Shown here: in pieces, positions 4,126-41,689 of the stretch
Layout: the number at the start of each line of letters is the position of its first letter
Position numbering within the stretch: the first letter of the stretch is position 1
IMG/VR virus record: IMGVR_UViG_3300006999_000002
Span: 1-41,689 of that record
Length of the DNA: 41,689 bases
Strand: one strand, 5' to 3'
Origin: a virus
Translations under genes and position numbers: made by a program
The notes under the pieces: model-generated
Seen by the model: only the letters and a program-made list of their open reading frames with translations
Told to the model about the DNA's origin: nothing
The model's database searches: none

Positions 4126-4389
4126 ATGGATACTACCCAGGCTCTAAGCCACATCGCTGCCCTGCTCAAGCGGACTGACCAGGTGCTGGAAGACGTTATG
4201 CTCGCCCAGGAGCAACTACTGGACCTTGAGAACGAGTTGAGGAGGGAGATCGAGAGCGAGTTCCAGGGGGGACCAAGCGACGACATCCTGTACAACATGT
4301 CGCCGGATAAGGGCGCACGGCACGAAGACAAGCGTAAGCCTAAGCGCCAGCAGATGAAGCGCAAACTGACAAGGGAGGGCAGCGTATGA
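4126..4389 (+). CDS. Small coiled-coil protein upstream of integrase
   Basis: The start at 4126 is set by AGGAGG 6 bases upstream. The 87-residue product has a long helical heptad-like segment (about 5-45, rich in Leu, Gln and Glu) and a strongly basic C terminus (about 65-87, with KRKPKRQQMKRK). Its stop overlaps the integrase start (ATGA), so the two are translationally coupled. A recombination directionality factor or integrase accessory protein is a natural guess from position and basic tail, but no excisionase helix-turn-helix is seen. The function is unassigned. Confidence 0.65.
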   Translation: MDTTQALSHIAALLKRTDQVLEDVMLAQEQLLDLENELRREIESEFQGGPSDDILYNMSPDKGARHEDKRKPKRQQMKRKLTREGSV

Positions 4390-5387
4390 AAGGTATCAGG
4401 AGGCGGGGCAAAAAGTGGCTGGTAGACGTGACCGTGCAGGGTAAGCGGAGGACCGCAACCTGTGACAGTTACGACCAGGCAGTAGCGCGGCGGTACGAGC
4501 TTCTCTCAGGCGCACAGCAGGCGCACAGCGGACAGAGAGCTTGGACCCTGGGGGAAGCCTATCGACGCACCAAAGACCGCGAGTGGAAGGGCACACGGTC
4601 AGAGTCCAAGGCCGTGGCCAACGCCAAGCAAGCGGTAGATTTCTTCGGCTGGGACACCAGGCTCGACAGCATCACCACCGACAGCGTGGACCAGTACGTC
4701 GAGCACATGGAGGGCCTTGGTTCATCCAACGCCACCATCAACCGCAAGTTGGCAGCACTAAGCAAGATGTTCACGGTGGCCCATCGCCGCGGAGGAGTGG
4801 GGATCAAGCCTCACTTCCCGCGCAAGAGGGAAGCCCAGGGACGCATCCGGTTCCTTACCCAGGAGGAAGAGCGGGCGCTACTCCGTACCATGGAGCACTT
4901 CGGCAAGGAAGAACACCGGGACGCATGTATCGTGCTGATCGACACCGGACTACGGTGTGGTGAGCTATGGAGGCTGACGGCTGGGGACGTGACCCTGAGT
5001 ACCGACATGCTCCACGTATGGGAGACCAAGGCGGACCTACCTCGGTCAGTCCCAATGACTGCCAGGGTGAAGGGGATTATCCGGCCGAAGGTACACGGGG
5101 CTAGTCGTGGAGACCGGCTGTTCCCCTACGACAACTGGTGGATGCGGTCTGCCTGGGAGCGAGTGCGTAGCCATCTTGGGCACGCCGAGGACCCGCAGTT
5201 TGTACCGCACATGCTCAGGCACACCTGCGCATCGCGCCTGGTCCAGCGGGGCGTGGCATTGAAGGTGGTGCAGGAGTGGCTGGGGCACAAGACCATCAGC
5301 CAGACGATGCGGTACGCTCACCTGGCACCGGCCACACTGAGTGATGCAGCCAAGGTATTGGAGACAGACCAGAAGGAGGCAGTGTGA
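4386..5387 (+). CDS. int: Tyrosine recombinase (phage integrase)
   Basis: A 333-residue protein with the full catalytic set of lambda-type tyrosine recombinases: Arg190 (TGLRCGEL), Lys215 (ETKADLP), His275 and Arg278 (HMLRHT), His301 (WLGHKT) and the nucleophile Tyr310 (MRYAHL). The N terminus (1-50) is a small basic arm-binding-type domain, and residues 51-145 look like the SAM-like core-binding domain. It would integrate and excise the genome at an attachment site. The complete tRNA-Leu 293 bases downstream, with flanking repeats, is the obvious candidate. The gene overlaps the small gene upstream (ATGA) and the next one (TGATG). No frameshift or lost residue is seen, so it should be active. 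Confidence 0.96.
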   Translation: MKGIRRRGKKWLVDVTVQGKRRTATCDSYDQAVARRYELLSGAQQAHSGQRAWTLGEAYRRTKDREWKGTRSESKAVANAKQAVDFFGWDTRLDSITTDSVDQYVEHMEGLGSSNATINRKLAALSKMFTVAHRRGGVGIKPHFPRKREAQGRIRFLTQEEERALLRTMEHFGKEEHRDACIVLIDTGLRCGELWRLTAGDVTLSTDMLHVWETKADLPRSVPMTARVKGIIRPKVHGASRGDRLFPYDNWWMRSAWERVRSHLGHAEDPQFVPHMLRHTCASRLVQRGVALKVVQEWLGHKTISQTMRYAHLAPATLSDAAKVLETDQKEAV

Positions 5388-5602
5388 TGAGCTACAAGCC
5401 TAACGATTTCCAGAAGGTGGACTCGTATGCGGACGGTCTGCTGGAGAACGCATCGCCGGAGTACCAGGCCCGCGTCCGCAAGGACATAGACCCCGATGCT
5501 GACCTAACGCCAAAGCAGAAGGAACGCATGGACCTAGCGTTGGGCGTGATGTGCCTGGTGCTGGTCTTCTGGCCAGTCCTGGTGATCTGGCTGTTCGGCT
5601 GA
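5387..5602 (+). CDS. Small C-terminal membrane-anchored protein
   Basis: The ATG at 5387 overlaps the integrase stop and follows AAGGAGG by 7 bases, so coupled translation is expected. The product is 71 residues: a soluble charged N-terminal part (1-48) and one hydrophobic segment (about 51-70, with VMCLVLVFWPVLVIWLF) ending at the C terminus, as in tail-anchored proteins. No family is recognised. Its place in the integration module fits a gene expressed from a lysogen, for example in superinfection exclusion, but that is speculation. Confidence 0.65.
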   Translation: MSYKPNDFQKVDSYADGLLENASPEYQARVRKDIDPDADLTPKQKERMDLALGVMCLVLVFWPVLVIWLFG

Positions 5603-5679
5603 GAGACTAGAGCCACAGAGGAGTCCCTTGATACCCGTATTGATGCAACAGGCGTTGCAGACTGTTGCCGATGTTGCAG

Positions 5680-5767
5680 GCGAGGGTGGTGGAACAGGCA
5701 GACACAGGAGGCTTAAAACCTCCCGCCATTCAATGGCTTGCGGGTTCGAGTCCCGCCCCTCGCACCA
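5680..5767 (+). tRNA. tRNA-Leu (anticodon UAA)
   Basis: A complete tRNA with encoded CCA. The acceptor stem GCGAGGG pairs with CCCTCGC (5757-5763), followed by discriminator A and CCA (5764-5767). The anticodon arm is GGAGG/CCTCC (5707-5711, 5719-5723) with loop CTTAAAA, giving anticodon TAA at 5714-5716. A long class II variable arm (GCCAT/ATGGC) and a T arm GCGGG/CCCGC with TTCGAGT follow, as expected for leucine. It reads UUA, a codon likely to be rare in this GC-rich genome. The location beside the integrase suggests the gene doubles as or derives from the attachment site. A 7-base loop with inverted flanks is a typical crossover core. Since the whole gene is present it could also be a working phage tRNA. 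Confidence 0.95.
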
Positions 5768-5818
5768 GTTCCAGATGGACTTAAAATCCTGTCCCGGATA
5801 CACCCTCCATCGGAACTG
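5766..5818. repeat. Inverted repeat downstream of tRNA, with CTTAAAA core
   Basis: CAGTTCC(A)GATGG (5766-5778) pairs with CCATCGGAACTG (5807-5818), 12 bp with one bulged A. Inside lies GGACTTAAAATCC (5777-5789), which repeats the seven-base anticodon loop CTTAAAA of the adjacent tRNA with 3-bp flanks. It may be a second integrase core-like site or the remnant of another tRNA-Leu copy. Confidence 0.5.
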
Positions 5819-5824
5819 ATCCTG

Positions 5825-5865
5825 AAAGCCCGCCATAGAGCCCCAGGTTCGGCGGGTTTTCTTTT
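5825..5865 (+). terminator. Rho-independent terminator after tRNA-Leu
   Basis: CCCGCC (5829-5834) pairs with GGCGGG (5851-5856), extended by G-T and three A-T pairs, and is followed by TTTTCTTTT. It ends transcription of the early and integration block and lies upstream of the first phage promoter. Early expression of the polymerase gene therefore requires some read-through or a promoter downstream of it. Confidence 0.8.
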
Positions 5866-5954
5866 GGCGTAACCTATCCGCCAGCGCAAGTGATCTTGTT
5901 GCGGCAAGCAACAGGGCATCAGCCCATGCAACTCCCTGTTAGAGCGGGGCTTTT

Positions 5955-5977
5955 GATTGGAGCCCACCAAGCGGCCC
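5955..5977 (+). promoter_or_regulatory. Phage RNA polymerase promoter P1
   Basis: GATTGGAGCCCACCAAGCGG is one of five copies of the same element. The core CCCACCAAGCGG aligns with the T7-family core CTCACTATAGGG. It lies 108 bases before the RNA polymerase gene, so the polymerase probably boosts its own transcription. The start site is probably in the GCGG. Confidence 0.8.
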
Positions 5978-5999
5978 AGCCGAAGGCCCCGTAAGGATT

Positions 6000-6083
6000 C
6001 CTTAGGACATCCCAACGATGCCTATGGATTATCCAAGGACATCCAATCTCAATCTTATTCCCCTAATACCCTTAGGAGATCCC
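6000..6083 (+). repeat. CCTTAGGANATCCC leader repeats before RNA polymerase
   Basis: Three related copies occur: CCTTAGGACATCCC (6000-6013), CCAAGGACATCC (6033-6044) and CCTTAGGAGATCCC (6070-6083). The last provides the ribosome binding site AGGAG for the polymerase gene. The same unit, CCTTAGGATCTC, forms the tandem array at the right end of the window, and CCTTAGG recurs after the promoter at 20896. Confidence 0.65.
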
Positions 6084-6084
6084 A

Positions 6085-8628
6085 ATGGAAGACCGTAAGG
6101 TTACTCGACAGAAGAACCTTGAAGGCATGATGAAAGGGCTCGGTGAGAAGGCGTACAAAGACCAGACGATCAGGGCGAGAGAGAAGGGCCAGGAGAGCAC
6201 CACGAGCTACGGTAGATTCCTGGTCAAGGCAGGGATTCAGCCTGTAGCAGACGAGATTGAGGCATACTACGCTCGAGCTATGGACGGGAGGGCTGGTCGT
6301 AAGGCAACGACCATCCGCCGTCTCCAGGAAGTCGTAAAGGCTCACGGCGAAGACAGGAAGAGCGCCTTCGAGACAGTGGCGTTCATCGCACTGAAGAGTT
6401 TGATCGACACCCTGATCAGGGAGACCAAAGCAGCCGCAACCAGCGTGGCTGTCGGGCTGTCGGTGGAGGATGAGGTCCGGTTCGCTCGGTTCAGGGAAGA
6501 GGCGAAGCCCTTGTTTGACACCCTGGACAAGAACCTCGATAAGAAAACCAAGGATATACGCCACAAGCGCACCGTCATGGTTCATTCGATGAACAAGGCT
6601 GGTGTCGAATGGGAGGGGTGGTCGCTGTCTGATCGTATGCAGTTGGGCCTAGTCCTCCTGGAGTTGACCATCCAGGCGACGGGCCTTGCGGAACTGAAGC
6701 CTGTCAACGAGGGCAAGAACAACACGCTTTACTACATCAAGCCCACGAAGGAAACGCTGGAGTGGATCAAGGCCAGGGGAGAGCATGACGCAGCCTTATG
6801 CCCCCAGTGGCTGCCCTGTGTTGTCCCTCCCAAGGACTGGACCACTCCGTTCGACGGCGGCTACCACAGCAACGAGGGGTCCTTCCGTATCCCCTTGATC
6901 AAGCCAGTGAAGAGCATGGCTGGCCGTCTCAAGCGGAACTACCTGGAAGAGGTAGCCAATCGGGCAGACGAAATGCCTGAGGTATACGAGGCAGTCAACG
7001 CCATGCAGAAGACGGCTTGGCAGATCAACTCGGACACGTTCTCAGTCTTCCAGCATATGTGGGAGAACATGGGGGACAGCCCGAAGGCTGGGCTCCCGGC
7101 CTGGGTCGAGTATGAGCCCAAGGACGTAATGAGGCCCTACCCTGAGGGCGAAAGCACCGACGAGCAGCGACGGTGGAAGCGCGATGCATCCCGTATGTGG
7201 GAGTGGATCAACACGGAGAACAGCCGAGTGATCCAGACCGTGAAGGTAAATTTCATCGCGGACAAGCTGGCCGACGAGGAAGAGATTTACTTCCCGTACC
7301 AGTTCGATTTCCGGGGGCGCGTGTACGCTACTCCCATCGTGCTGAATCCTCAGGGCAGCGACTTGTCCCGGGGCATACTCTGCTTTGCTCATGGTAAGCC
7401 GCTGCACAATCACCAGGCTTATCGCTGGTGGTGCATCCACGGGGCCAACGTGTGGGGCGAGGACAAGCTCTCTCTGGGTGCCCGAGTCCAGTGGGTGGAG
7501 GACAACGCTGATTGGATTCAGGCCGTAGGCTCAGACCCGTTGGAGCATAATGAGTGGATGGAGGCGGACAGCCCCTGGCAGTTCCTGGCATGGGCGTGTG
7601 AGTACGCTCGACGGGAGCAAGAGGGAGCTTCGTTCCTGTCCCATCTGCCGGTCCAGCTGGATGGCTCTTGCAACGGGCTCCAGCACTTCTCGGCCATGCT
7701 TCGAGACCCTGTGGGTGGCGAGGCGACCAACCTGGTGCCATCGGACCAGCCCCAGGACATTTACGCACGGGTGGCTGAGGTTGCCACCAATAAGCTACGT
7801 TCGTATGTTTCCGCAAACGGATACGATCCGCAATCGGAGGACAGTGACACAGCCTTGGCTTCCCGTTGGCTGGACGTCGGAGTCAATCGGAAGACCACGA
7901 AGCGGGCGGTGATGATCCGTCCCTACGGCGGGACGTTGAAGGCTACTCAGCACTACGTGGCGGGACACCTGTTGAGTGACCGGACGGTAGAAGAGCGAGC
8001 CACCTTGAACCCTGAGGACAACCGTGACTTGTTCCGGGCGTCCATGTTCATGGCGAAGGTGATCATGGAGGCGATCAACGAGACTGTTGTGGCCAGCAAG
8101 CACGCTATGGACTGGCTCCAGGCGGTGGCCAAGGCAGCCAGCAGGGAGCAGCTTCCGATCAACTGGTCCACGCCGGCCGGGTTCTACGTTCTCCAGGCGT
8201 ACCCGAACATCAAGATGCGCCGGGTTCGGACCAAGCTCGGGGAGCAGTCCATCCGGTTCTCCCTCAAGGAAGAGCAAGACAGCCTGGACTCGAGCAAGCA
8301 GGCCACGGCTATCTCCCCGAACTTCGTGCATAGCCTGGACGCTGCCGCCCTGGTTCGGTACGTGTGCAAGGCCAAGGCCCGGGGAGTGGATGCGTTCAGC
8401 CTGGTTCACGACAGCTACGGGACTCACGCCGCGGACACCCAGGACTCAGTGGAGGCGCTGAAGGAAGCCTTTGTGGAAATCTATGAGCAGAACGATCCGC
8501 TCCAGGATTTCTACGACCAGGTGGTGGCCGTGCTCCCTGAGGAAGAGCGGGAGAAGCTCCCGCCGATGCCCGCCAAGGGCAACCTGGACATCCGGCAGGT
8601 GCTGGAGTCCGACTATTTCTTTGCCTGA
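6085..8628 (+). CDS. T7-like single-subunit RNA polymerase
   Basis: An 847-residue homologue of T7 gene 1 (883 aa). Visible landmarks are FDFRGRVYA near 407-415, LDGSCNGLQH with catalytic Asp526 (T7 Asp537), RKTTKRAVM with Lys606 (T7 Lys631) and RPYGG with Tyr614 (T7 Tyr639), then APNFVHS-like SPNFVHS at 744-750, VHDSYGTH with catalytic Asp776 (T7 Asp812), and the conserved C-terminal Phe-Ala. The promoter-recognition loop around 708-725 (MRRVRTKLGE) differs from T7, which fits the different promoter core found here. It transcribes the middle and late genes. The ribosome binding site is AGGAG 6 bases before ATG. The gene lies between promoters P1 and P2. Confidence 0.98.
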   Translation: MEDRKVTRQKNLEGMMKGLGEKAYKDQTIRAREKGQESTTSYGRFLVKAGIQPVADEIEAYYARAMDGRAGRKATTIRRLQEVVKAHGEDRKSAFETVAFIALKSLIDTLIRETKAAATSVAVGLSVEDEVRFARFREEAKPLFDTLDKNLDKKTKDIRHKRTVMVHSMNKAGVEWEGWSLSDRMQLGLVLLELTIQATGLAELKPVNEGKNNTLYYIKPTKETLEWIKARGEHDAALCPQWLPCVVPPKDWTTPFDGGYHSNEGSFRIPLIKPVKSMAGRLKRNYLEEVANRADEMPEVYEAVNAMQKTAWQINSDTFSVFQHMWENMGDSPKAGLPAWVEYEPKDVMRPYPEGESTDEQRRWKRDASRMWEWINTENSRVIQTVKVNFIADKLADEEEIYFPYQFDFRGRVYATPIVLNPQGSDLSRGILCFAHGKPLHNHQAYRWWCIHGANVWGEDKLSLGARVQWVEDNADWIQAVGSDPLEHNEWMEADSPWQFLAWACEYARREQEGASFLSHLPVQLDGSCNGLQHFSAMLRDPVGGEATNLVPSDQPQDIYARVAEVATNKLRSYVSANGYDPQSEDSDTALASRWLDVGVNRKTTKRAVMIRPYGGTLKATQHYVAGHLLSDRTVEERATLNPEDNRDLFRASMFMAKVIMEAINETVVASKHAMDWLQAVAKAASREQLPINWSTPAGFYVLQAYPNIKMRRVRTKLGEQSIRFSLKEEQDSLDSSKQATAISPNFVHSLDAAALVRYVCKAKARGVDAFSLVHDSYGTHAADTQDSVEALKEAFVEIYEQNDPLQDFYDQVVAVLPEEEREKLPPMPAKGNLDIRQVLESDYFFA

Positions 8629-8634
8629 AGCAAT

Positions 8635-8661
8635 CCGCTCCCGGAACGAATCCGGGGGCGG
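8635..8661 (+). terminator. Hairpin after RNA polymerase gene (early terminator candidate)
   Basis: A continuous 11-bp stem, CCGCTCCCGGA/TCCGGGGGCGG (one T-G pair), has the loop ACGAA and starts 6 bases after the polymerase stop. It is followed by CTCTTC rather than a clean T tract. The position matches the T7 early terminator TE just after gene 1. It may also be a processing stem. Confidence 0.55.
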
Positions 8662-8667
8662 CTCTTC

Positions 8668-8690
8668 GATTGAAGCCCACCAAGCGGCCC
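8668..8690 (+). promoter_or_regulatory. Phage RNA polymerase promoter P2
   Basis: GATTGAAGCCCACCAAGCGG differs from P1 at one base. It follows the early hairpin and lies 20 bases before the first DNA-metabolism gene, so it starts the middle transcript. Confidence 0.85.
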
Positions 8691-8710
8691 AGCAAGCACA
8701 GGAGATCGAC

Positions 8711-8863
8711 ATGCAGCTTGAGATTCGCATGAACGCAAGCAACGACCGGGTGGTGTTCAACGGCACTGCCCATGACCGCAGCCAGTACGTGGGGCACGAG
8801 AAGCGCCGGCTGCGTAACAACGTGGTGAACGCTTTCCGCAAGTCCAAGCGCAGGAGCAAGTAA
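8711..8863 (+). CDS. Small basic middle protein, 50 aa
   Basis: The ATG at 8711 follows AGGAG by 6 bases and is the first start after promoter P2. The 50-residue product is very basic in its second half (EKRRLRN and KSKRRSK), consistent with nucleic-acid binding. Its stop overlaps the next start (TAATG). In T7 this stretch between genes 1 and 2.5 holds small host-takeover proteins such as gp2. No sequence match to gp2 is claimed. Confidence 0.7.
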   Translation: MQLEIRMNASNDRVVFNGTAHDRSQYVGHEKRRLRNNVVNAFRKSKRRSK

Positions 8864-9120
8864 TGGATCGAGACCAATTCACCAACGCCAACCTCAGGAG
8901 CGTGAGCAAGGCGTCTATGGCTGCCCTGAGCCAGATCCAGGACCATCCCAAGGGCGTCCAGCCGGCGGCCATCGCAGCGATGTTCCTGGCCTACAGCGAG
9001 GCGTCGGGCGTCCCGGCGCAGGACTTGATGACCGTGACCCAGAACATGATCAGCCACGCCGACGGACGGCGGCCTGAGTTCAAGGCACTGGTCCGGTACG
9101 TCGAGGGGGAGCTTCTGTGA
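8863..9120 (+). CDS. Conserved-looking hypothetical protein, 85 aa
   Basis: An 85-residue, mostly helical protein with no Cys and no membrane segment. The start overlaps the previous stop and the stop overlaps the next start (TGATG), so it is part of a tightly coupled cluster. Composition (AAIAAMFLAYSEASG near 36-50) suggests a small helical bundle. The function is unknown. Position upstream of the SSB gene suggests a replication or host-control accessory. Confidence 0.7.
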   Translation: MDRDQFTNANLRSVSKASMAALSQIQDHPKGVQPAAIAAMFLAYSEASGVPAQDLMTVTQNMISHADGRRPEFKALVRYVEGELL

Positions 9121-9275
9121 TGGAAGACGATAGGCAGATGGAGCTACCGCTGGAGCCGTCAGAGGAAGCGGCTCAGACGCTGGACAGCCTGGTTCGCCTG
9201 GCCGAGCAGGGCTACCTCCTGGAAGACATCGACATCCCGACCACCAACGAGGAGATCATCGACCATGGCGAGTAA
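9120..9275 (+). CDS. Small acidic protein, 51 aa
   Basis: The ATG at 9120 overlaps the previous stop, and the frame runs 11 bases into the SSB gene. The product is strongly acidic (MEDDRQMELPLEPSEE at the start, NEEIIDHGE at the end) with one helix, LDSLVRLAEQGY. It is short but enclosed by coupled genes on both sides, which supports translation. No function is recognised. Confidence 0.6.
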   Translation: MEDDRQMELPLEPSEEAAQTLDSLVRLAEQGYLLEDIDIPTTNEEIIDHGE

Positions 9276-9942
9276 GCGACAGAAGCCTACGGTCAGCCCG
9301 AAGGGCACCGCCATTTGGCCGAAGCTCAATGAGCCGGACCAGTACGACGAGAGCCAGGACCCGGTATACAAGGTCACCCTGGCGTTTGACGCTGAGAAGG
9401 ACGCCCAGAGCTTCATCGAGACCATCGACGAGAAGTGCAACGAGGCGTTCAAGGAAGCCCTTGAGGACAAGACGGCAGCCCAGCGCAAAAAGTTCTCGAT
9501 GTACGTCCCCTATGAATACGAGGAGGATGAAGAGACTGGCGAGCGTACCGGCCGAGTCCTGGTCAAGTTCAAGTCCAAGGCCGACGTCAGGGACAAGCGC
9601 ACGGGCAAGACGGTCCGTAAGGCGTTGCCGATCTTTGATGCCCGGGCGAGCAAGCCCATGAAGAACCCGCCGCGGATCGGCAACGGTTCGGTCCTCAAGA
9701 TCGCGGCTGTGTTCTCTAACCCCTGGAGCAATCCTGCGAAGCAGGCAGGGGCGAGCCTGTATATCCAGGCTGTTCAGCTGATCGAGCTTGCCGAGCATGG
9801 CGGCTCTGGCGGTGACGCCTTCGGCTTTGGCGAGGAAGACGGCTTCGAGACTGAGGACGACAGCAGCCCGGACTTCGAGGACGAAGGCGAGGGCTACGAG
9901 GACGGCGGCGACGACGACGGCGACGACGACCCGGACTTCTAA
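9265..9942 (+). CDS. T7 gp2.5-like single-stranded DNA-binding protein
   Basis: A 225-residue protein. The body (1-165) opens with GTAIWPKLNEPD and includes FKSKADVRDKRTGKTVRKALP, as in the OB-fold gp2.5 proteins. The last 50 residues are an acidic tail that ends in DDDPDF. In T7 the acidic tail with terminal Phe docks onto the polymerase and helicase, and the same is expected here. It coats single strands in replication and promotes annealing. It overlaps the small acidic gene upstream, and its stop overlaps the endonuclease start (TAATG). Confidence 0.93.
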   Translation: MASKRQKPTVSPKGTAIWPKLNEPDQYDESQDPVYKVTLAFDAEKDAQSFIETIDEKCNEAFKEALEDKTAAQRKKFSMYVPYEYEEDEETGERTGRVLVKFKSKADVRDKRTGKTVRKALPIFDARASKPMKNPPRIGNGSVLKIAAVFSNPWSNPAKQAGASLYIQAVQLIELAEHGGSGGDAFGFGEEDGFETEDDSSPDFEDEGEGYEDGGDDDGDDDPDF

Positions 9943-10394
9943 TGATAACCCGGAACAGTCGCGCCAACAAAGGTAGCGATGGGTTTCGTGGTGGGCTCGA
10001 GAGGGCCATCGGGGATCTACTCGATGGCCTTTCTATTTCGTACCGCTACGAACCTGGCGACATCGTATACCTGGTTCCTGCCCGAAACGCCAAATACAAG
10101 CCGGACTTCGTTCTTCCCAATGGAATCGTGATCGAAGCCAAGGGACGATTCGTCACGGCTGATCGGCAGAAATTCGTCAGGCTGAAAGAACAGTACCCAC
10201 GCCTTGATATTCGATTCATCTTCTCGAACCCGAATGCCCGCATCTCGAAAAAGTCCTCGACTACCTACGGAATGTGGTGCGAACGTAAGGGGTTTCCCTT
10301 TGCACCCGTGAAGGATTACGCGGCTTGGATGGCGTGGACGAACGAACCCGTAAACCAGGAATCTCTGGATGAACTCGAAAGCCTTCTGAAGTGA
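9942..10394 (+). CDS. T7-like endonuclease I (Holliday junction resolvase)
   Basis: A 150-residue homologue of T7 gp3 (149 aa). The nuclease core is clear: PDFVLPNGIVIEAKGRF contains the PD...ExK active site (Asp in PDF, Glu and Lys in EAKG), followed by LDIRFIFSN and TYGMWCERKGFPFA, as in T7. It cuts branched DNA, resolves concatemer junctions and helps degrade host DNA. The start overlaps the SSB stop and the stop overlaps the amidase start. Confidence 0.95.
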   Translation: MITRNSRANKGSDGFRGGLERAIGDLLDGLSISYRYEPGDIVYLVPARNAKYKPDFVLPNGIVIEAKGRFVTADRQKFVRLKEQYPRLDIRFIFSNPNARISKKSSTTYGMWCERKGFPFAPVKDYAAWMAWTNEPVNQESLDELESLLK

Positions 10395-10825
10395 TGACGA
10401 GAGAAACTACAGACACGGTGATCATCCATTGCTCTGCCACCCCGGCGGACATGGACATCGGAGTCAAAGAGATCGACCGATGGCATCGGGCGAAGGGCTG
10501 GCTTGAGATCGGCTACCACTTCGTCATTACGCGAAGTGGCGTAGTGCAGGAGGGTCGAAAGATCAGCAAGCCGGGAGCCCATGCAATCGGGTGGAACAAG
10601 CGAAGCATTGGGATCTGCTTGGTCGGTGGTGTCAATGAAGAGGGCGAGCCCCAGGACAATTTCACCATCGAGCAGATGGAACTACTGGAGCAACTCACCT
10701 ACGAGCTTCTCGACAAGTACCCAATACGCAATGTCATGGGCCACAACGAAGTGGCCCGTAAAGCCTGCCCGTCCTTCGATGTACAGGAGTGGCAAAAGGA
10801 AATCGGACTGGAGGACTACAAATGA
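10394..10825 (+). CDS. N-acetylmuramoyl-L-alanine amidase (T7 lysozyme-like)
   Basis: A 143-residue homologue of T7 gp3.5. The ATG at 10394 is preferred to the GTG one codon upstream, because of the TGATG overlap. Zinc ligands are His12 (VIIHCSAT), His117 (MGHNEV) and Cys125 (KACPSF), with catalytic-type Tyr41 (GYHFVI) and Lys123. It cleaves peptidoglycan amide bonds at lysis. In T7 the same protein binds and inhibits the phage RNA polymerase and links transcription to replication. Whether that holds here cannot be seen. There is no signal peptide, so it needs a holin. Holin-like genes lie at 23947 and 38515. Confidence 0.96.
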   Translation: MTRETTDTVIIHCSATPADMDIGVKEIDRWHRAKGWLEIGYHFVITRSGVVQEGRKISKPGAHAIGWNKRSIGICLVGGVNEEGEPQDNFTIEQMELLEQLTYELLDKYPIRNVMGHNEVARKACPSFDVQEWQKEIGLEDYK

Positions 10826-11043
10826 AGTCCCTCGACGGAATCCTCAAGAGCTTACACAAGACGCTCCGTGACCTCGACAAGCTGATCGACGCCCGGACGG
10901 CCAAGGTCAGTAAGAACATGGCAGAACTGGCGCGGATCGAGGACGAGAACGAACGGGCACTCACTGAGGCCAAGCAGGCTGGCCGTGCCCGCAGCAAGAT
11001 CGCAGGGCTGATCGGCACCGACGACGAGTCGGCCCCCGATTGA
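10822..11043 (+). CDS. Coiled-coil hypothetical protein, 73 aa
   Basis: The start at 10822 overlaps the amidase stop (ATGA). The product is almost one continuous charged helix (about 5-55, with LHKTLRDLDKLIDAR) and a short acidic end, DDESAPD. Its TGA stop lies inside promoter P3, so gene end and promoter share bases. Function is unknown. Coupling to the amidase might mean a role in lysis timing, but nothing direct shows this. Confidence 0.7.
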   Translation: MKSLDGILKSLHKTLRDLDKLIDARTAKVSKNMAELARIEDENERALTEAKQAGRARSKIAGLIGTDDESAPD

Positions 11044-11060
11044 AGCCCACCAAGCGGCCC
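11038..11060 (+). promoter_or_regulatory. Phage RNA polymerase promoter P3
   Basis: GATTGAAGCCCACCAAGCGG is identical to P2 over the whole element. The TGA in the element is the stop of the preceding gene. It starts the transcript for the winged-helix and primase-helicase genes. Confidence 0.85.
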
Positions 11061-11083
11061 ACCTGTCATCCGGCGGGTGGGCC
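11056..11083 (+). promoter_or_regulatory. 5'-terminal hairpin of the P3 transcript
   Basis: GGCCCACC (11056-11063) pairs perfectly with GGTGGGCC (11076-11083), followed by TTTCGCG. The stem begins within the expected start-site region of P3, so the RNA would carry a stem-loop at its very 5' end, as T7 late mRNAs do. A transcription pause is the other reading. Confidence 0.6.
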
Positions 11084-11120
11084 TTTCGCGTTCAACAGTC
11101 GAAACAGCGAGGCATCAGAC

Positions 11121-11432
11121 ATGCAGAGTATAGTCCGTACCATTCAACAGAATGTGACGCCTCAGGCAGCCAAGGTCCTTCGGTACATGGAGGACACCGA
11201 CGGCACTATCACGGCTCGCGAGGCGATGCTAGACCTTGACGCCACCAGCGCCACCCTCGCTCGCCGTATCTGCGACCTGGAAGAGGTAGGTGTGGTAATC
11301 AACCGGGAGTCGAAGACACACCCCGCGACGGGCAAGCGGTACACCCGGTATTCCTTGGATCCGGTTGCGACTGCAACCAACGTCATGCCGGTTCAGTCCG
11401 TCCACCCCGACGACTACGAGGTCAGTGCATGA
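11121..11432 (+). CDS. Winged helix-turn-helix DNA-binding protein
   Basis: A 103-residue product. ATG 11121 is used because upstream frame extension runs into promoter P3. Residues 13-75 read as a small winged helix: VTPQAAKVLRYMEDTDGTITAREAM, then the recognition-type helix ATSATLARRICDLEEVG and a wing around TGKRYTRYSL. Similar HTH proteins stand just before the primase-helicase in other T7-like phages. Its DNA target is unknown. As the only recognisable DNA-binding regulator in the window it is the best candidate for a lysogeny or timing switch, which is inference. The stop overlaps the next start (ATGA). Confidence 0.75.
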   Translation: MQSIVRTIQQNVTPQAAKVLRYMEDTDGTITAREAMLDLDATSATLARRICDLEEVGVVINRESKTHPATGKRYTRYSLDPVATATNVMPVQSVHPDDYEVSA

Positions 11433-13054
11433 GCGAGTTTGTCCACCATGAACCGTGCCCCCAGTGCGGCAGCAGAGACAACCTGGGCCGGTTCGATGAT
11501 GGGCATGGGTACTGCTTCGGCTGCCAATACTACGAACCGGGGGACGATGATCCCCCGGACACTTCCCGGTCTGAGGAGTCCCTAGTGTCCCGACACGGTA
11601 TGGTTGAGGGCGAGATACAAGCCCTTACGAAACGAGGGATCTCTGAAGAGACCTGTCGCAAGTTCGGCTATGAAGTCGGCCACTTCAAAGGGAAGCCGGC
11701 GCAGATCGCCAACTACCGCCCGCTCGACGGCGGCCCTGTGGTAGGCCAGAAGATACGCCTGAAAGACAAGGGATTCCCCTGGACAGGCGACGCCAAGAAA
11801 GCCTCTCCTCTGTGGGGCTCTTGGCTCTGGCGTAGCGAAGGTAAGATGGTGGTGATCACCGAAGGCGAGATCGACGCGATGACGGTCAGCCAGATTCAGG
11901 GCAACAAGTGGCCTGTGGTCAGCATCAAGGATGGGGCTCAGTCCGCAGCCAAGTCTATCAGCCGAGCCCTGGACTGGCTTGAGTCCTTCGAGCGCGTGGT
12001 GTTCATGTTTGACATGGATGACGCCGGTCAGAAGGCTGCTCAAGAGGCGGCTATGTGCTTGTCCCCAGGCGTCGCACGGATCGCCAACCTCCCCCTCAAG
12101 GACCCGAACGAAATGTTCCAGGCCGGCCGCGGCCGGGAGATCATCGACGCCATTTGGAACGCCCGGACTTTCCGGCCCGATGGCATCGTCACGCTGTCCG
12201 AGGTCAAGGACCTGGCTTCCCAGGACGTTACCCAGGGGCTGCCCTGGTGGTCGAAGACCTTGACGGACCTGACCTACGGCCGGCGTAAGGGCGAGGCGTA
12301 TGCCTTCGGCGCTGGCACTGGCGTAGGCAAGACGGACTTCCTGACCCAGCAAGTCGTGTATGACGTGATGGAGCTACAGGAGCCCGTCGGTCTGTTCTTC
12401 CTTGAGCAACAGCCGGCTGAAACAGCCAAGCGCATCGCCGGTAAGAGCGCCGGCAAGCGGTTCCATGTGCCTGACGGGACGTGGACTCACGAGGAACTCC
12501 TCCAGGCCCTCGACAACCTGGAGAGAAGCGGCCGGCTATACCTGTACAACCACTTCGGGTCCTGCGATTGGGACGTGATCGAGAAGCGCATTCGCTATCT
12601 GGCACGGGGTGAGGGCGTCAGGTTGTTCTACCTGGACCACCTGACTGCTCTGGTATCCGGCACGGACAATGAGCGAGTCGAGCTTGAGAAGGTCATGTCC
12701 GAGATCGGGAGCCTGGTCAAAGAACTCGATGTGATCATCCACTATGTTTCCCACCTGGCCACGCCTGAAGGCAAGCCCCACGAGGAGGGCGGGCGGGTGA
12801 TGATCCGCCACTTTAAGGGCTCCAGAGCGATTGGCTACTGGTCGCATTACATGTTCGGCCTGGAGCGAGACCAGCAAGACGACGAGTCGAACCACGAGAC
12901 TTCGTTCCGAATCCTAAAGGATCGCTATACAGGGCAGGCGACAGGCGAAGTGATCCCGATTGGCTACGACCACGATACCGGCAGGCTCTATGAGCTTGAC
13001 GGTAGTGAGTATTTCGACAAGGAAACCAGCGATGACCAACAAAGTCCTTTCTGA
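11429..13054 (+). CDS. T7 gp4-like primase-helicase
   Basis: A 541-residue fusion of primase and hexameric helicase (T7 gp4A is 566 aa). An N-terminal zinc domain has Cys10, Cys13, Cys29 and Cys32 (CPQC...CFGC). The TOPRIM primase follows, with TEGEID (Glu145) and FDMDDAG (Asp195, Asp197). The helicase has Walker A GAGTGVGKT at 294-302, Walker B LFYLDHL and downstream HYVSHLATP and KGSRAIGYWSH. It unwinds DNA at the fork and makes primers for the DNA polymerase. The start overlaps the winged-helix gene. Confidence 0.97.
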   Translation: MSEFVHHEPCPQCGSRDNLGRFDDGHGYCFGCQYYEPGDDDPPDTSRSEESLVSRHGMVEGEIQALTKRGISEETCRKFGYEVGHFKGKPAQIANYRPLDGGPVVGQKIRLKDKGFPWTGDAKKASPLWGSWLWRSEGKMVVITEGEIDAMTVSQIQGNKWPVVSIKDGAQSAAKSISRALDWLESFERVVFMFDMDDAGQKAAQEAAMCLSPGVARIANLPLKDPNEMFQAGRGREIIDAIWNARTFRPDGIVTLSEVKDLASQDVTQGLPWWSKTLTDLTYGRRKGEAYAFGAGTGVGKTDFLTQQVVYDVMELQEPVGLFFLEQQPAETAKRIAGKSAGKRFHVPDGTWTHEELLQALDNLERSGRLYLYNHFGSCDWDVIEKRIRYLARGEGVRLFYLDHLTALVSGTDNERVELEKVMSEIGSLVKELDVIIHYVSHLATPEGKPHEEGGRVMIRHFKGSRAIGYWSHYMFGLERDQQDDESNHETSFRILKDRYTGQATGEVIPIGYDHDTGRLYELDGSEYFDKETSDDQQSPF

Positions 13055-13151
13055 ATTCATTGCGTTGGGGCCGGAGGATATGTTCCATCCGACTATGCTC
13101 AACGCCTACGCAACGGGGGCTGTATGTCTCTCATTTCTGCTGCTCATGTGA
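13032..13151 (+). CDS. Possible small membrane peptide, 39 aa
   Basis: The ATG at 13032 lies inside the end of the primase-helicase gene, with AAGGAAA about 7 bases upstream. The product has a neutral N-terminal half and a hydrophobic C terminus, AVCLSFLLLM. It overlaps the next gene by 28 bases in another frame. It could be real but short and doubly overlapped, so evidence is thin. Confidence 0.3.
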   Translation: MTNKVLSEFIALGPEDMFHPTMLNAYATGAVCLSFLLLM

Positions 13152-13357
13152 AAGAGGTTACCGTCCCTTCTCTTGACGACGCCTCAGAGTCCCTCCATGT
13201 GGCTGTGGGCATCGCCCAGCTGAACCCGGAGGTCTACCCGGTGCTCCATGTGGCTAACGAGAACGACCGTCTGAAGCTCCAGGAGGCCCTGGATGAAGTC
13301 TCGGATGGAGAGAACGCTGCCAGCCATGTGATTGTACGCATTTATAGGGACAGCTGA
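13124..13357 (+). CDS. Hypothetical protein, 77 aa
   Basis: The ATG at 13124 follows GGGGG about 6 bases upstream. The 77-residue product alternates short strands and helices (HVAVGIAQLNPEVYPVLHV, then NDRLKLQEALDEV, then SHVIVRIYRDS), a compact alpha/beta layout. No family is recognised. It fills the gap between primase-helicase and PhoH. Confidence 0.55.
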   Translation: MSLISAAHVKEVTVPSLDDASESLHVAVGIAQLNPEVYPVLHVANENDRLKLQEALDEVSDGENAASHVIVRIYRDS

Positions 13358-13391
13358 TCTTATTGTCTCAAGCAATCCTGTAGAGGAATCA

Positions 13392-14084
13392 ATGAGCAAG
13401 CGGAACAAAAAAGACAAGTTCGCAAACAACCAGCAGAAGCGGGTCCCCAAGGTACAGGCGCTGACCGACCGGCAGCGGACGCTGATCAACTCGATCCTCG
13501 GCAGCCCCATGACCATCACGACGGGCTACTCCGGTACGGGCAAGACCTTCGTGCCGACCATGATGGCTGCGGATGCGTTCAATCGGACCCGGCAGCGCGG
13601 CGGGGTGGACAAGATCATCCTCACTCGGCCCAACGTGCAGAGCGGCAGGTCCCTCGGGTTCCGCCCGGGCGACCTCAACGAGAAGATGCTGGAGTGGTTT
13701 GCGGAGATCATGGCAGTCCTCCGTGAGGCGCTTGGGACCAATACGGTGGACCTGGCGCTCAAGCGTGGAGACATCGAGCTTGTCCCGTTCGAGACCATGC
13801 GAGGGCGGTCATTCAACAACGCCTTCGTCATCCTCGACGAGGCGCAGAACACCACCCCGCACGAAATGAAGATGTTCACCACCCGCCTGGGGATGAACAC
13901 AACCACGGTGGTCAACGGCGACATCCGCCAGTCCGACCTGAAAAGTAACAGCGGGCTTGCTGCTCTGATCGACATTACCTGGGACATGGAGATCCCTTGG
14001 ATCGACTTCGACGAGGATGACATCGTTCGATCAGACCTCTGCAAGGAATTCATTGTCCGTTGGATGGAATACGAAGCGAGGTAG
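13392..14084 (+). CDS. phoH: PhoH-like P-loop ATPase
   Basis: A 230-residue protein. ATG 13392 is chosen because GAGGAAT precedes it closely and upstream frame extension overlaps the previous gene. Walker A is GYSGTGKT (45-52) and Walker B is FVILDEAQNTT. LTRPNVQSG and NGDIRQSDL are typical PhoH signatures. PhoH proteins resemble the ATPase part of superfamily 1 helicases and are frequent in marine phages. The role in infection is unsettled, with RNA handling or phosphate response as suggestions from the family. The N terminus is Lys-rich (SKRNKKDK). Confidence 0.93.
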   Translation: MSKRNKKDKFANNQQKRVPKVQALTDRQRTLINSILGSPMTITTGYSGTGKTFVPTMMAADAFNRTRQRGGVDKIILTRPNVQSGRSLGFRPGDLNEKMLEWFAEIMAVLREALGTNTVDLALKRGDIELVPFETMRGRSFNNAFVILDEAQNTTPHEMKMFTTRLGMNTTTVVNGDIRQSDLKSNSGLAALIDITWDMEIPWIDFDEDDIVRSDLCKEFIVRWMEYEAR

Positions 14085-14086
14085 CT

Positions 14087-14176
14087 ATGGATTTTGTGGC
14101 TTTCGCACTAGGATTTGCCCTTCTCGTGGGGTGGGTAAAATTGATCACTGAACTCGTTGAAAAGGTGGCGGCATGA
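14087..14176 (+). CDS. Small membrane peptide, 29 aa
   Basis: Starts 2 bases after the phoH stop and ends overlapping the thyX start (ATGA). The sequence has one hydrophobic segment (VAFALGFALLVGWV, about 4-17) and an amphipathic tail (KLITELVEKVAA). Exact packing between two real genes supports translation. Function is unknown. A single-pass inner-membrane peptide is the obvious structure. Confidence 0.55.
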   Translation: MDFVAFALGFALLVGWVKLITELVEKVAA

Positions 14177-14898
14177 GTGCGCTTCCGCTTGAACCGATTG
14201 ATCCGCTAGAGGACGGGATCTCCAAGGTCGAATTTATCGACCGCATGGGCGACGACATCACGGTGGTCAATGCAGCCCGGGTGTCAATGAACAAGGAATC
14301 CTCGTGGGTTCACGAAGGTTACTTGGATTCCGCCATGTCCGTGCCGCGGAACATCCTGTCGAAAGGGGACGCCCGTCTAATTCGATTCCTGGCCAGGAAC
14401 AACCACTGGACGCCATTCGGGCACGTTCAGATTCAGCTACGAATCAAAGCCCCGATCTTTGTGGCCCGGCAGTGGTTCCGCCATGAGGTTGGCTTCGTCC
14501 GCAACGAGGTCAGCCGTCGGTACGTGTCCGAAAGGCCCGAGTTCTTCGTCCCGAAGACGCTGCGGAAGTTCGCGGCCAACGTGAAGCAGGGCTCCTCGGA
14601 CGAGACCGTAGAGGGCTACTCCCGGGATCATTTACTCGAGCAGTGCGAACAGACTGCGGAGGCGTACCTGTCCGTCATAGAAGAGGAAGGCGCTTGCCCT
14701 GAGCAGGCCCGAATGATCCTGCCTCAGAACACTTACACCGAATGGATCGAGACGGCCTCTCTGGCTGCCCTGGCCCGGGTGTTCGGGCTCCGTGCGGACA
14801 GCCACGCCCAGCGTGAAGTCCAGGCATACGCCCATGCCATCGACCACCTGATCCCCGGTGACCTTGCCACATCTTGGAGCGCACTGAGAGGTAACTGA
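14173..14898 (+). CDS. thyX: Flavin-dependent thymidylate synthase ThyX
   Basis: A 241-residue protein. It contains NNHWTPFGH (76-84) and the ThyX signature region RHEVGFVRNEVSRRY (103-117), corresponding to RHRxxSxNExSxR. The third residue is Glu where Arg is usual, a variation worth noting. It makes dTMP from dUMP using FAD, NADPH and methylenetetrahydrofolate, and with NrdJ and the MazG-like enzyme feeds DNA synthesis. Coupled to the peptide upstream and to the exported protein downstream (ATG at the last base of its stop). Confidence 0.93.
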   Translation: MSALPLEPIDPLEDGISKVEFIDRMGDDITVVNAARVSMNKESSWVHEGYLDSAMSVPRNILSKGDARLIRFLARNNHWTPFGHVQIQLRIKAPIFVARQWFRHEVGFVRNEVSRRYVSERPEFFVPKTLRKFAANVKQGSSDETVEGYSRDHLLEQCEQTAEAYLSVIEEEGACPEQARMILPQNTYTEWIETASLAALARVFGLRADSHAQREVQAYAHAIDHLIPGDLATSWSALRGN

Positions 14899-15194
14899 TG
14901 CGACGACTGATTCTGGCTGCACTGCTGACCGCGCCCGTGGCGGCCTCGGCTGGTGAGCTATTCGATGACCCTGAGCCGTACTTCCGTGCGGGCTGGGGGA
15001 TCAACACCACGGACCTGTACTCCGACCGGGACACATTCGGGCACACGCCCTGGGACGAGCCGGTGGCCGAGGCGGCCGTTGGTGTGGAGACCGAGGGCGG
15101 ACTCTCTATCGAGCTACGCCACATGAGCAACACGCAGGCCCCGGACGTTGGATTCAACTGGATCGGGGTCTCCTACAAGATCGGAGGCCAGTGA
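14898..15194 (+). CDS. Exported beta-rich protein, PagL-like C terminus
   Basis: A 98-residue protein with a clear signal peptide (MRRLILAALLTAPVAASA, cleavage expected after 18). The mature 80 residues alternate aromatic and polar strands, and the end, IELRHMSN...GFNWIGVSYKI, resembles outer-membrane beta-barrel strands. HMSN (His75, Ser77) recalls the His-x-Ser motif of PagL lipid A 3-O-deacylases. At the usual distance for the catalytic Glu I see none, and the protein is shorter than PagL (about 160 mature residues). It might alter the cell surface or block re-infection. The location between nucleotide-metabolism genes is unexpected. Confidence 0.6.
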   Translation: MRRLILAALLTAPVAASAGELFDDPEPYFRAGWGINTTDLYSDRDTFGHTPWDEPVAEAAVGVETEGGLSIELRHMSNTQAPDVGFNWIGVSYKIGGQ

Positions 15195-15292
15195 TGTTGG
15201 GGAGTGATAAGTGGCTGTACGCGCTGAAGCTAGCGGCGGCCATCTTCATCCCGGTCGCCCTCGTGGCCGAGTGCGTTCCGGCAGCAGGCTAA
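15194..15292 (+). CDS. Small membrane peptide, 32 aa
   Basis: The ATG overlaps the stop of the exported-protein gene (TGATG). The sequence is a short polar start, LGSDKWLYALK, and one hydrophobic helix (LAAAIFIPVALVAEC). The Cys is preceded by Glu, so this is not a good lipobox. The coupling suggests it works with the exported protein. Function is unknown. Confidence 0.5.
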   Translation: MLGSDKWLYALKLAAAIFIPVALVAECVPAAG

Positions 15293-15316
15293 CCGCAAAC
15301 TATCAAAGGGGAGGCT

Positions 15317-17257
15317 ATGAGCACCGCGATCTTTGACATCGAAACCAACGGACTTCTGGACCAGCTGGATCGGGTCCATAGCCTCGTGATCTGTGACCCC
15401 GACACCAAGCAGGTGGCCAGCTACGCGGACCAGCCCGGGTATCCGTCCATCGAGGAAGGCGTCCAGGCTCTACTCCAAGCGGATTACCTGGTAGGCCACA
15501 ACATCATCAAGTTCGACATCCCCGCGCTGGAGAAGGTCTACCCCTGGTTCAGAATCAAGGGTCAGTGGGGCCTGGACGATGACCGGGTGATCGACACCTT
15601 GGTCTGCTCTCGGTTGATCTGGCCGGAACTCAAGGTCAACGACTTCAAGTTCCGTAAGAAACACCCCTCGTTCCCTGGCAAGCTCATAGGCAGCCACGGC
15701 TTGGAAGCCTGGGGCTATCGCCTGGGCGAGTACAAGGGCGAGTTTGCTAAAGAAACCGACTGGTCCTCCTGGTCCGAGGACATGCAGTTCTACTGCGAGC
15801 AGGACGTCCGTGTAACGGACAAGCTCTACAGCCTGATCCTGAAGCGGTGGCCCTCGGACCTGTCCGTGTGGATCGAGCATGAGTTCCAGAAGATCATCTC
15901 CGAGCAGGAGAAGAACGGCTTCCCCTTCAAGACAGGGGAGGCGGCCAAGCTCTACGCTGGCCTGGTGGGAGAGCGCCAGGAGATCGACGAGAAGCTCAAG
16001 GCGATGTTCCCTCCGTGGTGGCGGCCGGTACACCAGCACACGCCTAAGCGCACCATGCGCCGGTTCGTCGAGAACGAGAACGGCAAGTGGCACAAGCGTA
16101 AGGACGGCTGGCGGAAGGGCTGGTATGAAGGTCTGACGGAAGGCTGCAAGCTCACCAAGGTCAAGCTCCAGGAGTTCGACCCGGGTTCCCCGGACCTGGT
16201 GGCTGATCGGCTGATCAAGGTAGAAGGGTGGAAGCCCCAGGAGTTCACGTCTGAGGCATGGCATTACGGCCCCTATGAAAGGAAGCCGTCCGTGTCCGAG
16301 GATGAACTCGCCAAGCTGAACTGTGAGTCTGCACGGCTGATCGCCCGCAGGATGATGCTATCAAAGCGCATCGGGCAGATCGCTGAAGGCCAGAACGCTT
16401 GGCTGAAACTGGAACAGGACGGGCGCATCTACGGCTCCGTGATTACCAACGGTGCTGTGACGGGCCGGTGTACGCACCGCAAGCCCAACATGGCCCAGGT
16501 CCCTTCCTCCTCTTCCGAGTACGGCAGAGAATGCCGCGCTCTGTTCTACGCTCCCGAAGGCATGAAGCTCGTGGGCGTGGACGCCGACAGCCTCGAGCTT
16601 GTAGGACTGGCCCACTATCTGGCCCTGTGGGACGAAGGAGCCTTCGCCTATGCCGTGTCCACCGGCAGTAAGGAAGACGGCACTGACCCCCACACCAAGA
16701 ACCAACATGCCGCGGGCCTGTCCTCTCGGGACAACGCCAAGACCTTCATCTACGCCTTCATCTATGGAGCCGGCGACTGGAAGATCGGCCACATTGTTCG
16801 ACCTGAGGCCAACGACGCCGATAAGAAAAAGGCCGGCAAGGCCCTGAAGAGCCAGTTCCTCAAGGGGATGCCGGCATTGGATCGGCTGATGAAGGCCGTC
16901 TCCAAGGCCATCAAAAAGCGTGGCTACCTCCGGGGGCTGGACGGACGGGTCCTCCCGATCCGCTCCGAGCACTCCGCGTTGAACACGCTGATCCAATCCT
17001 GCGGTGCGGTGATTATGAAGATGGCTACCATTTTCTTTTGGCGTAAAGCAGTCGCTACCGGATTTGTTCCGGTAGAGGACTTCATGTTGGTGGCTCACGT
17101 TCATGACGAGTGGCAGACGTTGGCCCGGGAAGAAATAGCGGAAGCCATTGGCGAGCTTGGTGTTCTGTCCATCGAGGATGCTGGGGAATACCTAGGGCTC
17201 CGCTGCCCGGTGACCGGCTCCGCGGACATAGGGAATAACTGGAGTGAAACCCATTGA
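15317..17257 (+). CDS. T7 gp5-like DNA polymerase (family A)
   Basis: A 646-residue replicative polymerase (T7 704 aa). 3'-5' exonuclease: IFDIETNG (Asp7, Glu9), VGHNIIKFD, YCEQDVRVT (Asp163). Polymerase: NGAVTGRCTHRKPNMAQVPSS, motif A VGVDADSLELVGLA, FIYAFIYGAGD in the O helix and motif C HVHDEW. In T7 a 76-residue loop in the thumb binds host thioredoxin. The matching segment here (about 234-287) is shorter and Lys/Arg/Trp-rich (KRKDGWRKGW), so the processivity partner may differ. GGGGAGG precedes the ATG by 3 to 4 bases. The end overlaps the GIY-YIG gene by 4 bases. Confidence 0.97.
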   Translation: MSTAIFDIETNGLLDQLDRVHSLVICDPDTKQVASYADQPGYPSIEEGVQALLQADYLVGHNIIKFDIPALEKVYPWFRIKGQWGLDDDRVIDTLVCSRLIWPELKVNDFKFRKKHPSFPGKLIGSHGLEAWGYRLGEYKGEFAKETDWSSWSEDMQFYCEQDVRVTDKLYSLILKRWPSDLSVWIEHEFQKIISEQEKNGFPFKTGEAAKLYAGLVGERQEIDEKLKAMFPPWWRPVHQHTPKRTMRRFVENENGKWHKRKDGWRKGWYEGLTEGCKLTKVKLQEFDPGSPDLVADRLIKVEGWKPQEFTSEAWHYGPYERKPSVSEDELAKLNCESARLIARRMMLSKRIGQIAEGQNAWLKLEQDGRIYGSVITNGAVTGRCTHRKPNMAQVPSSSSEYGRECRALFYAPEGMKLVGVDADSLELVGLAHYLALWDEGAFAYAVSTGSKEDGTDPHTKNQHAAGLSSRDNAKTFIYAFIYGAGDWKIGHIVRPEANDADKKKAGKALKSQFLKGMPALDRLMKAVSKAIKKRGYLRGLDGRVLPIRSEHSALNTLIQSCGAVIMKMATIFFWRKAVATGFVPVEDFMLVAHVHDEWQTLAREEIAEAIGELGVLSIEDAGEYLGLRCPVTGSADIGNNWSETH

Positions 17258-41612: not shown

Positions 41613-41630
41613 GCCCGGGGGGTCTCCCCC

Positions 41631-41689
41631 TTAGGATCTCCCTTAGGATCTCCCTTAGGATCTCCCTTAGGATCTCCCTTAGGATCTCC
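41631..41689. repeat. Right-end tandem array, 5 x 12 bp
   Basis: Four full copies and one nearly full copy of TTAGGATCTCCC run to the last base of the window, preceded by the hairpin GGGGG-TCT-CCCCC (41617-41629 region). On the other strand the units read CCTAAGG, one mismatch from the T7 SRR heptamer CCTAAAG. The array is cut by the window end, so its true length is unknown. Confidence 0.9.

Follow-up and report, generated by a model that had tools for sequence, protein, structure and literature searches.

The region around the integrase gene in the window, by which we mean the whole 41,689-base viral sequence IMGVR_UViG_3300006999_000002 that was analysed here, very probably serves the integration of a temperate T7-like phage with tRNA-dependent lysogeny. 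According to the mechanism that we propose, the integrase would carry out recombination between a core at 5777-5789 and a host tRNA-Leu(UAA), within the anticodon loop of the latter, presumably bound during strand exchange at flanking TGTTGC arm sites, and the 5' and 3' halves of the host tRNA would finish at opposite ends of the prophage. Because neither a 3' nor a 5' tRNA half lies beside 5777-5789, as one would in a classical attP derived from a tRNA gene, the host gene would be split and not rebuilt. UUA codons are read by the UAA tRNA only. The spare tRNA-Leu(UAA) at 5680-5767, which lies on the integrase side of the core and nine bases off, would maintain UUA decoding, and by supplying a UUA-reading tRNA it would allow the lysogen to survive. 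The evidence, read at the level of sequence, consists of an intact tRNA, a separate core, the pairing of the two throughout the family and a host tRNA that is split in the lysogen of a LUZ100-like relative.

Architecture of the probable integration region

The features of the region are as follows.

4386-5387, plus strand: tyrosine integrase, 333 aa (PF00589, E 2e-26; PHROG integrase, E 5.5e-56)
5645-5677, no strand assigned: left putative arm-type sites (GCAACA at 5645, TGTTGC at 5663 and 5672, also GTTGC at 5654)
5680-5767, plus strand: complete tRNA-Leu(UAA) with encoded CCA (ARAGORN; Rfam RF00005, 53.3 bits)
5777-5789, plus strand: putative attP crossover core GGACTTAAAATCC, 13 bases, outside the tRNA, with an equivalent core in whole-tRNA relatives
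5824-5865, plus strand: terminator-like hairpin TTTTCTTTT with an 11-bp stem and a 16-base loop, between the core and the RNA polymerase gene and followed by T-runs
5897-5932, no strand assigned: right putative arm-type sites (TGTTGC at 5897, GCAACA at 5908, also GCAAC at 5928)
6085-8628, plus strand: T7-like RNA polymerase (PF00940, E 5.8e-103)

The window carries the single-subunit phage RNA polymerase and the T7-like terminase that characterise the Autographiviridae, and thus represents a T7-like podovirus. Its large terminase (TerL) shares 58-61% identity with its counterparts in Roseobacter, Rhizobium, LUZ100 and ProddE phages, and the best matches of its RNA polymerase are Pasto and YIMV22061. 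Among the early genes examined, neither an excisionase of known type nor a MarR-type regulator was recognised; the early region also encodes a GP88-family protein of unknown function (1323-2171; PF17338, E 1.4e-45). Perfect tandem arrays are present at both ends of the window, at 10-99 (GGCCCACTGTA, 8.2 copies) and 41628-41689 (CCCTTAGGATCT, 5.2 copies), and possibly resemble the short repeats near T7 termini, while a comparison of both ends revealed no exact terminal repeat. Repeats of the CCTTAGGA type also occur at 6000-6085, ahead of the RNA polymerase gene, and an in-frame 84-base repeat of about 2.5 copies is found at 37354-37567 within ORF 36623-38515, which is possibly a tail fibre gene.

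A sequence-only reading of the same DNA had pointed to an active-looking integrase upstream of the tRNA, and this is borne out by an intact ORF, by the PF00589 and PHROG matches and by an alignment in which the catalytic residues R...HxxR...H...Y are kept. The nearest relatives of the integrase are those of T7-like phages; the most similar one, in L038, shares only 54% identity with it, and the closest named relative is the T7-like Desulfovibrio phage ProddE at 45%. The tRNA starts 292 bases after the integrase stop and is the sole tRNA in the window, its completeness, which had likewise been claimed, being agreed upon by ARAGORN and Rfam. A promoter scan found no sigma-70 promoter for it. Its anticodon is the same as that of the core, which served as the reference in place of a host tRNA.

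The core itself had been overlooked. GGACTTAAAATCC comprises the anticodon loop of tRNA-Leu(UAA) plus three stem bases on each side, begins nine bases beyond the tRNA end and is part of no tRNA; the string GACTTAAAATC has a single occurrence in the window, and 100 dinucleotide shuffles produced none. What we find is a short putative attP core that matches a tRNA gene and is adjoined by too little tRNA to rebuild it. The earlier proposal was that the whole tRNA is the attP, with the crossover in its own anticodon arm. The anticodon loop of the phage tRNA is indeed flanked by 5 bp on each side, and the tRNA lies among arm-like sites, but we regard this explanation as very unlikely, given that there is a second core beyond the tRNA, that in relatives the position of this core downstream of the integrase is conserved even where the tRNA shifts and inverts, and that in the L028 lysogen described below the separate core was the crossover site and the phage tRNA remained whole. 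As the phage tRNA arm reads GGAGG-CTTAAAA-CCTCC, it shares just seven consecutive bases with the core. Thus, what had been suggested still stands in that the phage, a temperate T7-like one, attaches through this region and most likely targets the anticodon loop of a host tRNA-Leu(UAA), but the crossover core most likely lies outside the tRNA. It also follows that a host should not be sought by the identity of its tRNA to 5707-5767, because the sequence of a spare tRNA may differ from that of the host's.

The clustering of TGTTGC/GCAACA around the tRNA, also noticed in the sequence-only reading, is real. These hexamers number 18 in the window versus 17.5 expected, that is, chance level, and five of them, at 5645-5913, fall within one 273-base stretch, the densest in the window, where the mean is 0.12 per 273 bases. 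TGTTGC flanks the core in L038 as well. The cluster looks like a set of arm-type sites to which the integrase might bind.

The hairpin at 5824-5865 was missed by a simple terminator scan with a loop limit of 8, and terminator T4 of LUZ100 occupies the equivalent place. Terminators are found between the core and the RNA polymerase gene in several members of the family and not in all, and for this reason the hairpin was excluded from the evidence. In a lysogen, it would separate the host tRNA promoter from the phage RNA polymerase gene, and our guess is that it could serve as an insulator.

Pairing of tRNA and core among relatives

Relatives of the integrase were gathered from IMG/VR, genome contigs and phage records, and most of them have an RNA polymerase gene downstream. 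A separate core was present in 24/24 surveyed loci (the window included) that have a phage-borne whole tRNA-Leu and readable downstream sequence, and in every one of these the core anticodon corresponds to the isoacceptor of the phage tRNA, be it UAA, CAA or UAG. Most whole-tRNA loci combine a UAA tRNA with a CTTAAAA core, L038 and L088 a CAA tRNA with a TCAAAA core, and RHEph21 and Lo5R7ANS a UAG tRNA with a TTTAGGT core, which in Lo5R7ANS is further from the integrase. Within 750 bases after the integrase, a core with matching anticodon was detected in all 19 whole-tRNA-Leu loci tested, compared with 1.9 expected from dinucleotide shuffles; the corresponding tail probability is only indicative and not a clean p-value, because the pattern was defined after the first cases and the loci share ancestry. 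Left out of the count were L048, in which a whole tRNA-Leu(CAG) without a separate core lies at the contig end and may be a phage or a host gene, and the provirus records that end just after the integrase (L024-L026, L029, L104).

The loci can be sorted into four groups. Group (a), with a whole tRNA-Leu and a separate core, includes the window, LUZ100, Pelagibacter phage HTVC200P, MedDCM-S28-C10, Limnohabitans phage YIMV22061, RHEph21, Lo5R7ANS, Pasto, HTVC119P and many metagenomic contigs. Group (b) has a tRNA 3' half at the core (ProddE, L071, L116 and others), group (c) a tRNA-Leu 5' half (L051, L064, L075, L077 and others), and the heterogeneous group (d) collects loci in which neither a whole tRNA with core nor a tRNA half was recognised. 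Members of group (a) vary in the side of the integrase on which the tRNA lies and in its strand, whereas the core is always downstream of the integrase and on the same strand, except in YIMV22061, where it is on the opposite one; the core of L090 is weak. A whole and a half tRNA-Leu never occur together in an unintegrated attP, and were seen together only in L028 and L068, which are integrated junctions with the host's half. Mapped onto the integrase tree, the presence of a whole tRNA requires 14 changes, of which at least 7 are forced by well-supported branches, which argues that the whole tRNA is not one inherited accident and that the solutions have been swapped repeatedly.

These patterns bear on two further explanations for the tRNA. 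As suggested for LUZ100, it could be a passive remnant of imprecise excision, and phages can indeed acquire host tRNAs, an origin put forward by the LUZ100 authors (PMC10134795). We consider this very unlikely, as the tRNAs are intact, occur in many divergent lineages, are isoacceptor-matched to a separate core and are missing where the attP already has a tRNA half. Alternatively, the tRNA might serve lytic growth independently of integration, through codon supply or the evasion of tRNA-cutting defences. Such roles are known for tRNAs of other phages and would be compatible with tRNA-dependent lysogeny, but a lytic role predicts neither the pairing of isoacceptor and core nor the mutual exclusion of whole and half tRNAs, and as an explanation in its own right it seems very improbable. 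The whole tRNA, which the sequence-only reading had noted as unusual, is indeed the clue; across the family it pairs with a separate, matching core, as tRNA-dependent lysogeny would have it.

The 5' half of tRNA-Leu(UAA) in the attP is an observation in its own right. It is present in L051, L064, L066, L074, L075, L077, L079 and L091, in sites about 100-150 bases past the integrase, whereas the 3' half is the usual form, and with such an attP the 5' half of the reconstituted host tRNA, perhaps along with its promoter, would come from the phage. L051, L064, L075 and others had been considered as core-only phages that would disrupt the host tRNA while carrying no replacement; this reading was dropped, as a 5' tRNA half ends at the core in these loci.

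Integrated relatives and the search for the window's prophage

The clearest view of integration comes from the provirus L028 (IMGVR_UViG_2927991490_000002; also L032), whose record name points to an isolate genome, whose integrase is 87% identical to that of LUZ100 and in which both attL and attR are visible, together with a whole tRNA-Leu(UAA) of its own. At one junction, the integrase is followed by ...CTGCAACAGACTTAAAA and then by the 3' half of the host tRNA-Leu ending in CCA; at the other, which adjoins a tRNA-Cys, the tRNA-Leu 5' half ends in GGGACTTAAAA and runs into phage GGTCTTGCATCC. ARAGORN finds no tRNA at attL or attR, and the joined host flanks yield an intact tRNA-Leu(UAA) with a common core of 9 bp, GACTTAAAA. 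The host tRNA-Leu(UAA) is therefore split within its anticodon loop; the crossover took place in the separate core, leaving the tRNA of the phage untouched. This implies that in this LUZ100-like relative integration destroys the host gene and a replacement comes with the phage. In addition, the unintegrated relative L027 carries the predicted attP, and L068 provides a second junction of the same kind, visible at one end only. By extension, we infer that the window phage itself would lysogenise in this manner and would need its tRNA for lysogeny.

Searches of viral sequences, genome contigs and genomes yielded neither a lysogen of the window phage nor its host. No prophage was recovered with the LUZ100-type integrase in 274 genomes of one class, and none of use with the T7-like RNA polymerase in 369 genomes, of which two matched, the starting genome G001 and a weaker one. 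A scan of viral contigs with the window RNA polymerase gave no match, and accordingly neither a close relative nor a host was identified. Genome contigs scanned with the integrase returned two relatives, namely L010, whose contig stops about 2 kb past the integrase with no core seen, and L011, in which the integrase adjoins an intact tRNA-Leu(UAG) that belongs to a tRNA cluster, with no RNA polymerase nearby. Integrase matches in plasmid records were mostly weak.

A separate observation concerns a LUZ100-like prophage that has itself been invaded. In L036 (IMGVR_UViG_3300014012_000008), a 12.5-kb satellite-like element at 4559-17059, encoding a P4-type tyrosine integrase, a VapE-like protein and an AlpA-like HTH protein, interrupts the prophage's tRNA-Leu(UAA) in the anticodon loop with a 9-bp core. 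The element has its own complete tRNA-Leu(UAA) at 16871-16955, and the phage tRNA is restored on joining the flanks. A second, unrelated type of integrase thus appears to use tRNA-dependent integration.

Relation to known phages and implications

tRNA-dependent lysogeny was defined and experimentally demonstrated in actinophages by Guerrero-Bustamante and Hatfull (2024, PMC10865867), who posed its frequency elsewhere as a question and whose criteria include a requirement of the phage tRNA for lysogeny, evident as clear plaques on its deletion. Like the window, the actinophages Fionnbharth, LeBron and Gaia have a tyrosine integrase, a short core matching a tRNA gene and an intact phage tRNA of the same isotype; their host tRNA gene is not rebuilt, as we propose for the window phage too, and Omega and Gaia illustrate the same switch between a half-tRNA attP and a whole tRNA (PMC10865867). 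Unlike them, the window represents a T7-like podovirus with a tRNA-Leu(UAA), known here from its sequence.

Among T7-like phages, the Pseudomonas phage LUZ100 (OP329100; PMC10134795) and LUZ100-like prophages share with the window a complete tRNA-Leu(UAA) beside a related integrase, and LUZ100 further has a separate core, CAGACTTAAAAGG, with a terminator after it. It differs in that its tRNA lies upstream on the other strand and its integrase is about 40% identical; its authors ascribed the tRNA to imprecise excision and did not obtain lysogens (PMC10134795). According to the accessible parts of the respective papers, the idea of tRNA replacement has been stated for the Fonsibacter phage uv-Fonsiphage-EPL (PMC6811365) and for Lo5R7ANS-like prophages of Sinorhizobium meliloti (PMC11476347, PMC12429752), which, like the window, are T7-like and have their own tRNA-Leu, said to replace a disrupted host tRNA-Leu. 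Their tRNA is a tRNA-Leu(UAG), and a family-wide separate core with isoacceptor match is not described in those parts. ProddE (MZ666938), unlike the window, has a classical attP with the 3' half of tRNA-Leu(UAG) and no whole tRNA near the integrase. The cyanophages P-SSP7 and S-TIP37 (PMC8776855) are T7-like, encode an integrase and have an attP in tRNA-Leu, with integration shown by PCR; their attP is part of the tRNA gene, and stable lysogens were not found. P-SSP7, with which a parallel had been drawn earlier, is thus of another kind than the window, having part of a tRNA in its attP. In the literature covered, which was mainly open and had the pelagiphage study of Zhao et al. 2019 outside its scope, we found no report of the separate core, of the match between core and isoacceptor or of three exchangeable solutions, and the family-wide evidence seems not to have been assembled before.

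The proposed mechanism explains the leucine tRNA beside the integrase in many temperate T7-like phages, gives base-level predictions of the attB for LUZ100, Pasto, HTVC200P and their relatives, and predicts clear plaques when the phage tRNA is deleted. With the LUZ100-like lysogen, in which both junctions are visible, tRNA-dependent lysogeny also extends beyond the actinophages in which it is experimentally known. Overall, it seems probable that tRNA-dependent lysogeny is widespread and has changed repeatedly in temperate T7-like phages, with one integrase family that typically targets the anticodon loop of tRNA-Leu and relies on a 3' half, a 5' half or a whole spare tRNA, and with satellites that exploit the phage-borne tRNA in the same way.
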